Positions 9,734 through 60,046 of a stretch of 64,000 nt of DNA are shown here, one piece after another; positions within the stretch are counted from its first letter, which is position 1; each line of letters opens with the position of its first letter. The position numbers and the translations under genes were made by a program. The DNA is from Phascolarctobacterium sp. Lineage in GTDB: Bacteria > Bacillota > Negativicutes > Acidaminococcales > Acidaminococcaceae. A model generated the notes under the pieces. The model was not told the DNA's origin and did no database searches. It worked only from the letters and a program-made list of their open reading frames with translations. The stretch covers positions 62,001 to 126,000 of the forward strand of contig JAUNWI010000004.1 of the NCBI GenBank assembly GCA_030540395.1. The letters run 5' to 3'.

Positions 9734-9810
9734 GGCCCGGTGGTTCAGTTGGTTAGAATGCCGCCCTGTCACGGCGGAGGTCGTGGGTTCGAGTCCCATC
9801 CGGGTCGCCA
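9734..9810 (+). tRNA. tRNA-Asp (GTC)
   Basis: 77-base cloverleaf with acceptor stem GGCCCGG/CCGGGTC, anticodon GTC, T-arm GGTTCGAGTCC and encoded CCA. First gene of a five-tRNA operon. The copy at 57564 reads identical. Confidence 0.97.
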
Positions 9811-9815
9811 ATCTT

Positions 9816-9891
9816 GCCTCGGTAGCTCAGTTGGTAGAGCAAAGGACTGAAAATCCTTGTGTCCACAGTTCGATTCTGTGCTGAGGCACCA
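9816..9891 (+). tRNA. tRNA-Phe (GAA)
   Basis: 76-base cloverleaf, acceptor GCCTCGG/CTGAGGC with G-U pairing, anticodon GAA, CCA encoded. Confidence 0.96.
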
Positions 9892-9896
9892 TATCT

Positions 9897-9971
<75 letters not shown>

Positions 9972-9978
9972 CTTTTAA

Positions 9979-10052
9979 GGCGACATAGCCAAGCGGTAAG
10001 GCAGGGGTCTGCAAAACCTTTATCCCCAGTTCGATTCTGGGTGTCGCCTCCA
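9979..10052 (+). tRNA. tRNA-Cys (GCA)
   Basis: 74-base cloverleaf with acceptor GGCGACA/TGTCGCC, anticodon GCA, CCA encoded. Confidence 0.96.
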
Positions 10053-10078
10053 TTTTTATTTTCTTTTTTAGATTGTCT

Positions 10079-10167
10079 GCCGCGGTGGCGGAACTGGCAG
10101 ACGCAAGGGACTTAAAATCCCTCGGGTAGTGATACCCGTACCGGTTCGATTCCGGTCCGCGGCACCA
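10079..10167 (+). tRNA. tRNA-Leu (TAA)
   Basis: 89-base class II tRNA with acceptor GCCGCGG/CCGCGGC, anticodon TAA, a long variable arm (CGGGTAGTGATACCCG) and encoded CCA. Last gene of the operon; a broken fic gene abuts its 3' end. Confidence 0.97.
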
Positions 10168-44413: not shown

Positions 44414-45175
44414 TTATTTATCTAGCTTGGCATGCTCCTTGAAGGCAGTACCGAATTGTGTATATTCTAGCTCTGCTCCCCGCAGGTCCGCATAATCCAG
44501 TACAGCTCTGTCCAGCAAAGCTCGATTGAGCTTTGCGTGCTGTAGATCACTGTGACTCAGTTTGGCACTGCGTAAATCAGCATTATTTAAATTGGCCTTG
44601 GCCATGTGGGTGCTGTACATGTTAGCGCCGTAAAAGCAGGCGTTGGGCAGACTGGCATTGCGCAGCCAGCTGTAGGGCAGGCTGGCGTGGCTAAAGTCTG
44701 CGAAATCGCCCTGCACACCGTCCAGCACGGCTTCTTGAATTTGGGCGTAGGCAAGGCTCACATTGAGCAGCTTGCTCCCTTGGAGCTGGCTGCGAAAAAG
44801 CTGAGCTCTGTCCATTTTGGCGTTGGTAAAGTCCGCATCCGTAGCCTGGGCATAGCTAAAATCAGCATCGGTTAAATCCGCATCCCGCAGGCGGCTGCGG
44901 TGCAGAATGGCACTGCGAAAAACAGCATTGTGCAGCTGTGCTTTATCCAGGTTAGTCCCATCCAGGCGTGCTTCGGTAAAATCCGTGCCTGCAAAATCTC
45001 GTCCGGAAAGGTTGTAGCCCGACAGGTCGGCACCGGAAAGGTCACCGCCGGGGCAGCTGGCCCCCTTTTGCACAGCGACTAAATCAGCATTGTTATAGGC
45101 TTGGGCAGTGGGAGACTCTAGAAGCACTATAAGACTTGCGGCAACGCTCAAAAGTAATAATTTTTTGCTAAGCAT
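44414..45175 (-). CDS. Secreted pentapeptide-repeat protein
   Basis: 253 aa. A signal peptide (cleavage near TAQA, about residue 26) is followed by about 40 pentapeptide repeats of the A(D/N)LXX type (DLSGADLSGYNLSG, ADLTDADFSYAQATDADFTN, KANLNNADLRSAKLSHSDL). These fold into a right-handed quadrilateral beta-helix. Function outside the cell is unknown. Two cysteines are retained (about 41 and 182). Probably cotranscribed with the HAD gene upstream (20-base gap). Confidence 0.88.
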   Translation of the reverse strand: MLSKKLLLLSVAASLIVLLESPTAQAYNNADLVAVQKGASCPGGDLSGADLSGYNLSGRDFAGTDFTEARLDGTNLDKAQLHNAVFRSAILHRSRLRDADLTDADFSYAQATDADFTNAKMDRAQLFRSQLQGSKLLNVSLAYAQIQEAVLDGVQGDFADFSHASLPYSWLRNASLPNACFYGANMYSTHMAKANLNNADLRSAKLSHSDLQHAKLNRALLDRAVLDYADLRGAELEYTQFGTAFKEHAKLDK

Positions 45176-45195
45176 ATGTTATACCTGCTTTCACA

Positions 45196-45891
45196 TTAAG
45201 CTTCATAAAAAAGCTTTTCCAATTCCTGGGGATCCTCGGGCAAAAAGTCGATGATTTTCCAGGGCTTGCATTCGTCAAAATCCTCCCGCTTGTAGCCGGA
45301 GCCATCCAGTACAATTAAGCAAGGAGAGCCAATGGAATGGGCACATTTGACATCATTGGGGGTATCGCCAATGAACAGCATTTGCTTGGGGTCAAAGCTT
45401 TGGTTATGGAGCAGGAAAAAACGGGAGAAGGCAATGCGTGCTAGCTCCTCACGCTTTTCACTGACCTCGCCAAAAACGCTGTGGTCGAAGGAAAAATATT
45501 TATCCAGTCCGTAATAGGCCAGCTTTTCCTGAGCCCCACTGCGGGTGTTGCCCGTTAAAAGGCAGTTTAGGTATTTGCTGCCTGGCTGGCTAAAATATTG
45601 GAGCGTTTTTTCTACGTTTTTTAATACCCGACCCTTGTGCAAGGGCAATTGCTTGGGCAGCTCCATGTGATAACGAATAAGCAGACCTGCCGCTTCTGCA
45701 CTGCTGCAACGACCTCTGAGCCTTGTAACTACAGATTTAATAATGTCAGAATCAGTGCGTCCGGCAAGGCTTTGGGTAAAATCAAAGGCATCTAAAAAGT
45801 AATAATCCTTAATTACATTAATCATGGCATCCTTGCCGGCGCCGCCGGTGAGAATCAAGGTGCCATCCACATCCCACATGAGATATTTCAT
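45196..45891 (-). CDS. HAD family phosphatase
   Basis: 231 aa. Haloacid-dehalogenase fold with motif I DVDGTLI, an alpha-helical cap (about 20-85), motif II LLTGNT, motif III lysine near KREEL, and motif IV FIGDTPNDVKCA. Closest in layout to phosphoglycolate phosphatase-like enzymes. Substrate unknown. First gene of a two-gene minus-strand unit. Confidence 0.88.
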   Translation of the reverse strand: MKYLMWDVDGTLILTGGAGKDAMINVIKDYYFLDAFDFTQSLAGRTDSDIIKSVVTRLRGRCSSAEAAGLLIRYHMELPKQLPLHKGRVLKNVEKTLQYFSQPGSKYLNCLLTGNTRSGAQEKLAYYGLDKYFSFDHSVFGEVSEKREELARIAFSRFFLLHNQSFDPKQMLFIGDTPNDVKCAHSIGSPCLIVLDGSGYKREDFDECKPWKIIDFLPEDPQELEKLFYEA

Positions 45892-45934: not shown

Positions 45935-45958
45935 AAAAAAGCTGCCACAAGGGGCAGC
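45935..45958 (-). terminator. Terminator of the SpeD-like gene
   Basis: GCTGCC/GGCAGC stem with a six-base loop, then TTTTTT on the minus strand. Confidence 0.8.
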
Positions 45959-45978
45959 CTTATCCTTTTACAACGCAA

Positions 45979-46461
45979 TTAGATAGAGCGGGGCTTCATC
46001 ATCATTTTTTTCAGCTTACTGCCCATGCTGCTGGTAACATTCTTGGTACGGCGGATTAATTTGATTTTAGAGCGATGGGTGGGCTTCATATCATTTTTGC
46101 TACCAAAATCACCGCGGTCCAAAAGGGTGATTTTAGACTTGTCAGCATCGAAGGCTTCCCGCAGATTGCGTGCCAAGGCGGCAGGGTCAGCATCAGCGGA
46201 GCAGGTGAAGATATCACAGGTCATAAAACCCATTTCCGGATACACGTGCAGCGTTACATGTCCCTGTTGGCAAATAGCAAAGAGGGAATACTCCTTGGCA
46301 CCCTCCTCCTGATTGCAAACAATCTGTTGGCAATGCATGGAAAATTGCTCGCAGCCCTTGCGAAGCAATTCTTCGGCTACAGTAGAAACGGAAATCTCCT
46401 CCGTGCCGCAATTATACATATCAATGGCAATTAATTTACCAAGAAAATTCTTCTGTTTCAC
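45979..46461 (-). CDS. SpeD-like protein (S-adenosylmethionine decarboxylase fold) lacking the processing serine
   Basis: 160 aa. The first 120 residues align with prokaryotic S-adenosylmethionine decarboxylase along their whole length: LGKLIAIDMYNC at the start and HVTLHVYPEMGF, CDIFTCSADADPAA later. In SpeD the E-S bond of SESH is self-cleaved and the Ser becomes the pyruvoyl cofactor. Here the equivalent residues are Q66-G67 before H68. The other catalytic residues, H72 and C87, remain. The C-terminal 40 residues are a basic tail (HRSKIKLIRRTK, KLKKMMMKPRS). Translated from a GTG with AGGGG. No spermidine synthase is adjacent. It is unlikely to be a normal decarboxylase. Confidence 0.85.
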   Translation of the reverse strand: MKQKNFLGKLIAIDMYNCGTEEISVSTVAEELLRKGCEQFSMHCQQIVCNQEEGAKEYSLFAICQQGHVTLHVYPEMGFMTCDIFTCSADADPAALARNLREAFDADKSKITLLDRGDFGSKNDMKPTHRSKIKLIRRTKNVTSSMGSKLKKMMMKPRSI

Positions 46462-46545: not shown

Positions 46546-46574
46546 ATTATAGCTAAATTTTTAAAGGCTGTAAA
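46546..46574 (-). promoter_or_regulatory. Promoter of the SpeD-like gene
   Basis: Minus strand TTTACA, 17-base spacer, TATAAT. Confidence 0.7.
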
Positions 46575-57563: not shown

Positions 57564-57640
57564 GGCCCGGTGGTTCAGTTGGTTAGAATGCCGCCCTGTC
57601 ACGGCGGAGGTCGTGGGTTCGAGTCCCATCCGGGTCGCCA
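57564..57640 (+). tRNA. tRNA-Asp (GTC)
   Basis: Reads identical to the copy at 9734 over all 77 bases, including the encoded CCA. Confidence 0.97.
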
Positions 57641-57642
57641 AT

Positions 57643-57717
<75 letters not shown>

Positions 57718-57718
57718 T

Positions 57719-57792
57719 AGGGGTATAGTTCAATGGTAGAGCACCGGTCTCCAAAACCGTCGATCTGGGTTCGAGTCCTAGTACCCCTGCCA
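57719..57792 (+). tRNA. tRNA-Trp (CCA)
   Basis: 74-base cloverleaf with acceptor AGGGGTA/TACCCCT, anticodon CCA, CCA end encoded; one base after tRNA-Gly. Confidence 0.96.
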
Positions 57793-59903: not shown

Positions 59904-59925
59904 TAAAATAACTTCATAAGGTGAA

Positions 59926-60030
59926 CCTTTGGGGCAGGGTGCAATTCCCTACCGGCGGTAAAGTCCGCGAGCCTTCGGGCACGAGCAGGCGCAATTCCTG
60001 CACCGACAGTATAGTCTGGATGAGAAAAGG
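59926..60030 (+). promoter_or_regulatory. FMN riboswitch (RFN element)
   Basis: Contains the conserved RFN blocks GGGGCAGGGTG, TTCCCTACCGGCGGTAAAGT, CCGCGAGCC, and GACAGTATAGTCTGGATGAG with GAAAAGG at the end. It binds FMN and controls the terminator at 60047-60085, lowering riboflavin gene expression when FMN is plentiful. Confidence 0.96.
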
Positions 60031-60046
60031 TGGCTAATTTGTATCT

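Follow-up and report, generated by a model that had tools for sequence, protein, structure and literature searches.

The 64,000-nucleotide stretch of a Phascolarctobacterium sp. contig analysed here (JAUNWI010000004.1; hereafter the window) carries a gene (45979..46461, minus strand; 160 amino acids, GTG start, stop codon included) whose product combines the fold of the S-adenosylmethionine (AdoMet) decarboxylase SpeD with a basic C-terminal tail, and lacks the serine from which SpeD makes its pyruvoyl cofactor. More than 90% of the Negativicutes species sampled have the tailed protein, which matches the NCBI AdoMet decarboxylase model but mostly lacks the cofactor-making residue, and we conclude that the protein labelled as AdoMet decarboxylase probably has some other job in most members of this class. 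The reading that we favor is that of a class-wide pseudoenzyme acting through its basic tail, with probable binding to RNA, the ribosome or DNA and perhaps with a pocket that senses AdoMet or polyamines; we give this reading an even chance of being correct.

Homology to prokaryotic SpeD, which the original prediction had claimed from the sequence, was recovered by profile and structure searches alike. The window protein matched Pfam PF02675 over residues 12-117 with 71.8 bits (cut-off 25), and phmmer against the PDB retrieved T. maritima SpeD (1tlu; E = 4e-9), with Q66-G67 aligned on E62-S63. The match to TIGR03330 (residues 6-117) scored 62.9 bits and is thus under the equivalog cut-off of 75.65; this model matched each of the 54 proteins in the class-wide alignment. 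Two AF2 runs modelled the core (residues 6-118; 46108..46446, minus strand) with pLDDT mostly above 90, and the tail with low confidence (pLDDT about 50-62). With the predicted structure as query, Foldseek ranked T. maritima SpeD first (1tlu: E = 2.9e-10, TM 0.87 on target), followed by Aquifex SpeD, eukaryotic AdoMetDC and the trypanosome AdoMetDC/prozyme complex. The top four matches include 1tmi, the non-processing S63A mutant of T. maritima SpeD, a structure indicating that the SpeD fold stands without processing. Structure prediction and homology together establish the SpeD fold for the window protein.

Where the pyruvoyl-forming E-S-H belongs, the window protein has Q66-G67-H68 (CAG GGA CAT; 46258..46266, minus strand), codons 65-68 reading CAA CAG GGA CAT. 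The serine is therefore missing as predicted, with Gly67 (GGA) at its site and Q66-G67 in place of E-S, and the two catalytic residues said to be kept, His72 and Cys87, are both present. His72 (46246..46248, minus strand), the equivalent of T. maritima His68, is retained in 74 of the 79 serine-less members of the family described below, and Cys87 (46201..46203, minus strand), the equivalent of catalytic Cys83, in 50 of them. Glycine cannot give a pyruvoyl group. By established chemistry, absence of the serine means no pyruvoyl and hence no known SpeD reaction, from which we infer that the window protein should neither self-cleave nor decarboxylate by the known pyruvoyl mechanism. Extraction and alignment of the approximately 155-residue versions from Acidaminococcales revealed G-H at the site in every case, preceded by a variable residue, and serine in none of the aligned members of this order. 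Of 97 distinct tailed sequences, 79 are without serine and carry G (67), A (5), C (3), F (2), H or T instead. On this alignment, loss of the cofactor site in the window protein is evident.

The gene appears intact and has its own control signals, as had been proposed. A sigma-70-type promoter-like site, TTTACA-17-TATAAT (46546..46574, minus strand), matches the consensus at 11 of 12 positions and has counterparts in relatives: among those printed, a matching promoter lies at a shared position upstream of the tailed gene. On the 3' side, an intrinsic-terminator-like hairpin is followed by a T run (45938..45961, minus strand). A short upstream ORF in the leader, MTAGRATICLFYF, was spotted by eye and discarded, as it was not evident in the relatives printed. 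The predicted absence of decay is consistent with the open reading frame and with a dN/dS of 0.064 to the closest relative. Close pairs of tailed proteins gave dN/dS values of 0.05-0.08 and more distant pairs 0.18-0.23, and in 9 of 11 pairs the pN of the tail did not exceed the pN of the core. Judged by these substitution rates, the serine-less tailed protein is clearly under purifying selection. Conservation across the order and the class, together with the low dN/dS, rules out a one-off or decaying copy.

PF02675 was detected in 53 of the 63 genomes of the order Acidaminococcales, and all of the approximately 155-residue versions share the RGDFG-x3-DMKP junction and the basic tail. Order and class names of the genome groups used here follow from the position of Phascolarctobacterium in the NCBI taxonomy (Acidaminococcales, Negativicutes). 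More than 50 genomes of the order share the G-H site and the tail, so the observation made in the window is not due to chance. A profile built from the proteins of the order matched 357 of 380 Negativicutes genomes, and 228 of the 234 of high quality; as the gene is missing from the remaining 6 of 234, it is not essential everywhere. The class-wide profile was then run on 398 genomes of the phylum, 14 in the class and 384 outside. Members of the class were covered over profile positions 1-152. For the matches listed outside the class, coverage stops at about position 114-127, the end of canonical SpeD, and the few extending to about 140 get that far solely by passing through a stop codon. Since the listed matches outside the class are tail-less, the tail is class-specific at the sampling used.

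In a maximum-likelihood tree, calculated from the core only and thus from few columns, with many open forks, the tailed proteins formed one clade separate from canonical class 1b SpeD (support 99/88). The sole tail-less row within this clade, L162 (genome G125), is a split gene in two overlapping frames, possibly owing to a frameshift, a duplication or an assembly error; these same causes may apply to L110 (genome G189), in which a partial copy of the 3' half of the tailed gene directly follows the gene. Basal tailed members retain E-S-H and the catalytic cysteine. By parsimony, the serine/no-serine label requires 7 changes on this tree, and for the group labels the starred branches force 5-6 changes. 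The simplest history would thus be that the tail was gained first and that the serine was lost later, more than once. The original prediction had suggested to look for the Q-G pair and the basic tail as a conserved clade: the tailed family does form a clade, but its serine-less members arose several times. It had also named homologues with E-S in an identical context as evidence to the contrary, and such homologues exist in part, in that relatives located beside ctsR-mcsA-mcsB-clpC-radA keep E-S-H and the cysteine, the same block also neighbouring the gene in some serine-less Acidaminococcales. E-S-H relatives in a shared context mark the loss of serine as derived; they do not make the window protein an enzyme. 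The idea of a repurposed fold is supported by loss of the serine while fold and tail were kept under selection.

No polyamine gene is adjacent to the gene in the window, in agreement with the prediction; its neighbours are recD2, a comF-like gene, and genes for a HAD hydrolase and a pentapeptide-repeat protein. In Acidaminococcales, recD2 and comF are usually transcribed divergently from the tailed gene, and the HAD and pentapeptide genes lie downstream of it, while in other lineages and some Acidaminococcales the ctsR-mcsA-mcsB-clpC-radA block lies a few kb off, also divergent. The pair that follows the gene in the window (44414-45891, minus strand) encodes a HAD-type hydrolase and a pentapeptide-repeat protein whose N-terminus is signal-like; about 16 Acidaminococcales loci show such a pair after the tailed gene, in the same orientation. 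Recent transfer or a phage origin was rejected, as the phage and plasmid matches are distant SpeD relatives and synteny with recD2/comF or ctsR-clpC is found in many lineages. Outside Acidaminococcales, rRNA genes were located within about 7 kb of the tailed gene in 10 of 19 loci tested (5S, 23S and some 16S, 3' of the gene and convergent; L170, L177, L180, L181, L185, L178, L168, L171, L173 and L127), and in several other genomes the contig stops just past the tailed gene, as expected at rRNA repeats. No rRNA was found near the gene in the window or in four Acidaminococcales loci tested; the linkage may be plain synteny and was rejected as functional evidence. Elsewhere in the window, two tRNA clusters about 47 kb apart (9734-10164 and 57564-57789) have equal or nearly equal Rfam scores (66.1, 73.4, 63), which suggests a duplicated tRNA block, and an FMN riboswitch (59921-60035) precedes riboflavin-type genes (ORFs from 60102 on).

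The basic tail of 40 residues noticed initially comprises the residues after RGDFG (121-160; 45982..46101, minus strand), carries a net charge of +12 and is conserved in relatives. Across the tailed family, tail length is 33-55 residues; tail net charge ranges from +6 to +20 in all 54 sampled class members, and that of the core from -12 to +5. The junction motif R116-GDFG-x3-DMK-P127 (46081..46116, minus strand) lies in the best-conserved stretch of the family, information content peaking around the junction (residues 105-128) at 2.74 bits, compared with a mean of 2.02 and with 2.44 for the cleavage strand. A PDB search for relatives of the tail returned none, the best match, ribosomal protein S3 at E = 1.4, being not significant.

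We propose that an ancestor with intact catalytic residues would have acquired the basic tail, and that the cofactor serine would then have disappeared in many lineages, often along with the catalytic cysteine, whereas the fold and the tail persisted. The retained function would be exerted by the folded core and the basic tail jointly, through binding of an anionic partner; from the charge of the tail, RNA or the ribosome would be the most plausible partner and DNA a less likely one. As a further guess, based on the fold, the former active-site pocket might be free to serve as a sensor of AdoMet or polyamines. We put forward only tentatively the more specific scenario in which an AdoMet decarboxylase turned into a ligand-sensing regulator that binds RNA or the ribosome, the tail preceding the loss and catalysis being repeatedly discarded as selection kept the function of the tail.

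That the tail instead targets a membrane or an acidic protein partner, and not nucleic acid, seems rather unlikely to us. The second AF2 model places one helix at tail residues 134-153, with low confidence, and the tail ends in hydrophobic-basic stretches such as KLKKMMMKPRS; the predicted helix could equally lie on a membrane or a protein, which counts against nucleic-acid binding. It is, however, the extended RGDFG-DMKP region preceding the helix that is conserved best, and this speaks against such targeting.

Genome content bears on any link of the tailed protein to polyamine synthesis. The window's genome has a single PF02675 protein, i.e. no second SpeD, and no PF01564 protein (SpeE) was found in its assembly, which is 92.65% complete; it has one PF01276 match and three PF02784 matches (basic amino-acid decarboxylase homologues), and the two PF02784 matches examined resemble LysA-type decarboxylases. 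By hand count from the tables, SpeE is present in 19 and absent in 34 of the 53 tail-bearing Acidaminococcales, and a second PF02675 protein is present in 6 and absent in 47. Outside Acidaminococcales, a second PF02675 match is found in most genomes of the class. In the six relatives, the tailed protein without serine is accompanied elsewhere in the genome by an E. coli-type class 1a SpeD with an intact site (LDKSH), encoded in a polyamine operon; the copy in genome G028 scored 411 bits against TIGR03331. By eye, PLP-decarboxylase-like and speE-like ORFs directly follow this second SpeD in five of the six, and a speB-like ORF is also near it in several. The working SpeD, where present, is therefore a different gene. 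Together, genome content speaks against the window protein acting as a decarboxylase, in the spermidine pathway or as a prozyme-like partner.

A polyamine-related or cell-envelope role appears unlikely. In such a role, the fold would bind putrescine or cadaverine and help to control or supply diamines for the polyaminated peptidoglycan by which Negativicutes anchor their outer membrane. Eukaryotic AdoMetDC has a putrescine site, and human AdoMetDC structures with putrescine are among the Foldseek matches; the presence of PF01276 and PF02784 homologues in a genome without detected SpeE is also in line with this role, as is the distribution of the tailed protein in a class whose studied members have diamine-modified peptidoglycan (PMC10628300). 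It is opposed by the window protein sequence, which shows no apparent signal peptide or membrane segment, by a conserved neighbourhood that shows no linkage to decarboxylase or peptidoglycan genes, and by the strongly basic tail, which would be odd for a diamine binder.

We regard it as very unlikely that the protein is still an enzyme, either making its cofactor in another way or using a different chemistry at the kept histidine and cysteine. The two site histidines are nearly invariant in the tailed family, the cysteine persists in the 50 serine-less sequences mentioned above, and the full catalytic set (E-S-H, both histidines and the cysteine) is found in 10 of the 97 distinct tailed sequences, so an enzymatic role is possible in those lineages. 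However, a site occupied by glycine yields no pyruvoyl, the cysteine is also gone in 29 of the 79 serine-less sequences (with F, L, M, Q, V, I, A, R, Y or G in its place), and conservation is highest at the C-terminal junction rather than at the active site, which counts against retained enzyme chemistry. A prozyme-like role, in which the serine-less protein would heterodimerise with a true SpeD and activate it, can invoke the dead AdoMetDC paralogue of trypanosomes as precedent (PMC5201418, PMC6221367), the Foldseek matches to AdoMetDC/prozyme structures (5tvm, 5tvf) and the second PF02675 protein of most class genomes outside Acidaminococcales, but it is highly improbable, and rejected for genomes without SpeD, i.e. 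most of the order, because the window's genome and 47 of the 53 tail-bearing Acidaminococcales have no other PF02675 partner, 34 of the 53 also miss SpeE, and the SpeD of the six exceptions is of the E. coli type and within its own operon.

Presence of the tailed gene does not equal spermidine synthesis, and it can mislead the reconstruction of polyamine pathways in common gut and oral bacteria. With its tail constant, the family also offers a natural gradation between intact and dead enzyme, in which one can ask which function survives the loss of catalysis. A literature search confined mainly to open-access papers, so that absence is not proof, did not turn up any account of a bacterial family of stand-alone SpeD proteins lacking the serine. 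In Veillonella parvula, Vpar_0438, which is annotated as AdoMetDC proenzyme and is either the tailed protein or a true SpeD, is listed at -18 fold on coaggregation (PMC6529473).

Compared with known systems, the tailed family shares with canonical class 1b SpeD (TIGR03330, PF02675, 1tlu) the fold, the core length, the histidine pair and often the catalytic cysteine; it differs by the missing serine (79 of 97), the class-specific basic tail and the lack of a link to speE, and the window protein scores under the TIGR03330 equivalog cut-off. SpeDA and SpeDC, pyruvoyl-dependent arginine and ornithine decarboxylases derived from SpeD, are likewise SpeD homologues, encountered alongside a true SpeD or in genomes that lack SpeE (PMC10407285). 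They form pyruvoyl, and the described ones are located in polyamine clusters (PMC10407285), neither of which holds for the tailed window protein; their intact self-cleavage serine corresponds to Gly67 in the window protein. The SpeD-SpeDC fusions of Victivallis vadensis contain a degraded C-terminal SpeD domain, which resembles the tailed family as a prokaryotic SpeD domain that has lost active-site residues and does not self-cleave (PMC10407285). That domain and an active SpeD form a single fused chain, whereas the tailed family is stand-alone, class-wide and equipped with a basic tail. The trypanosomatid AdoMetDC prozyme is, similarly, a catalytically dead AdoMetDC paralogue kept by selection (PMC5201418, PMC6221367), but it is eukaryotic and must pair with AdoMetDC, and the window's assembly has none to pair with. 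As a precedent, a non-catalytic regulatory role on translation has been described for an AdoMetDC protein in T. brucei (PMC6221367).
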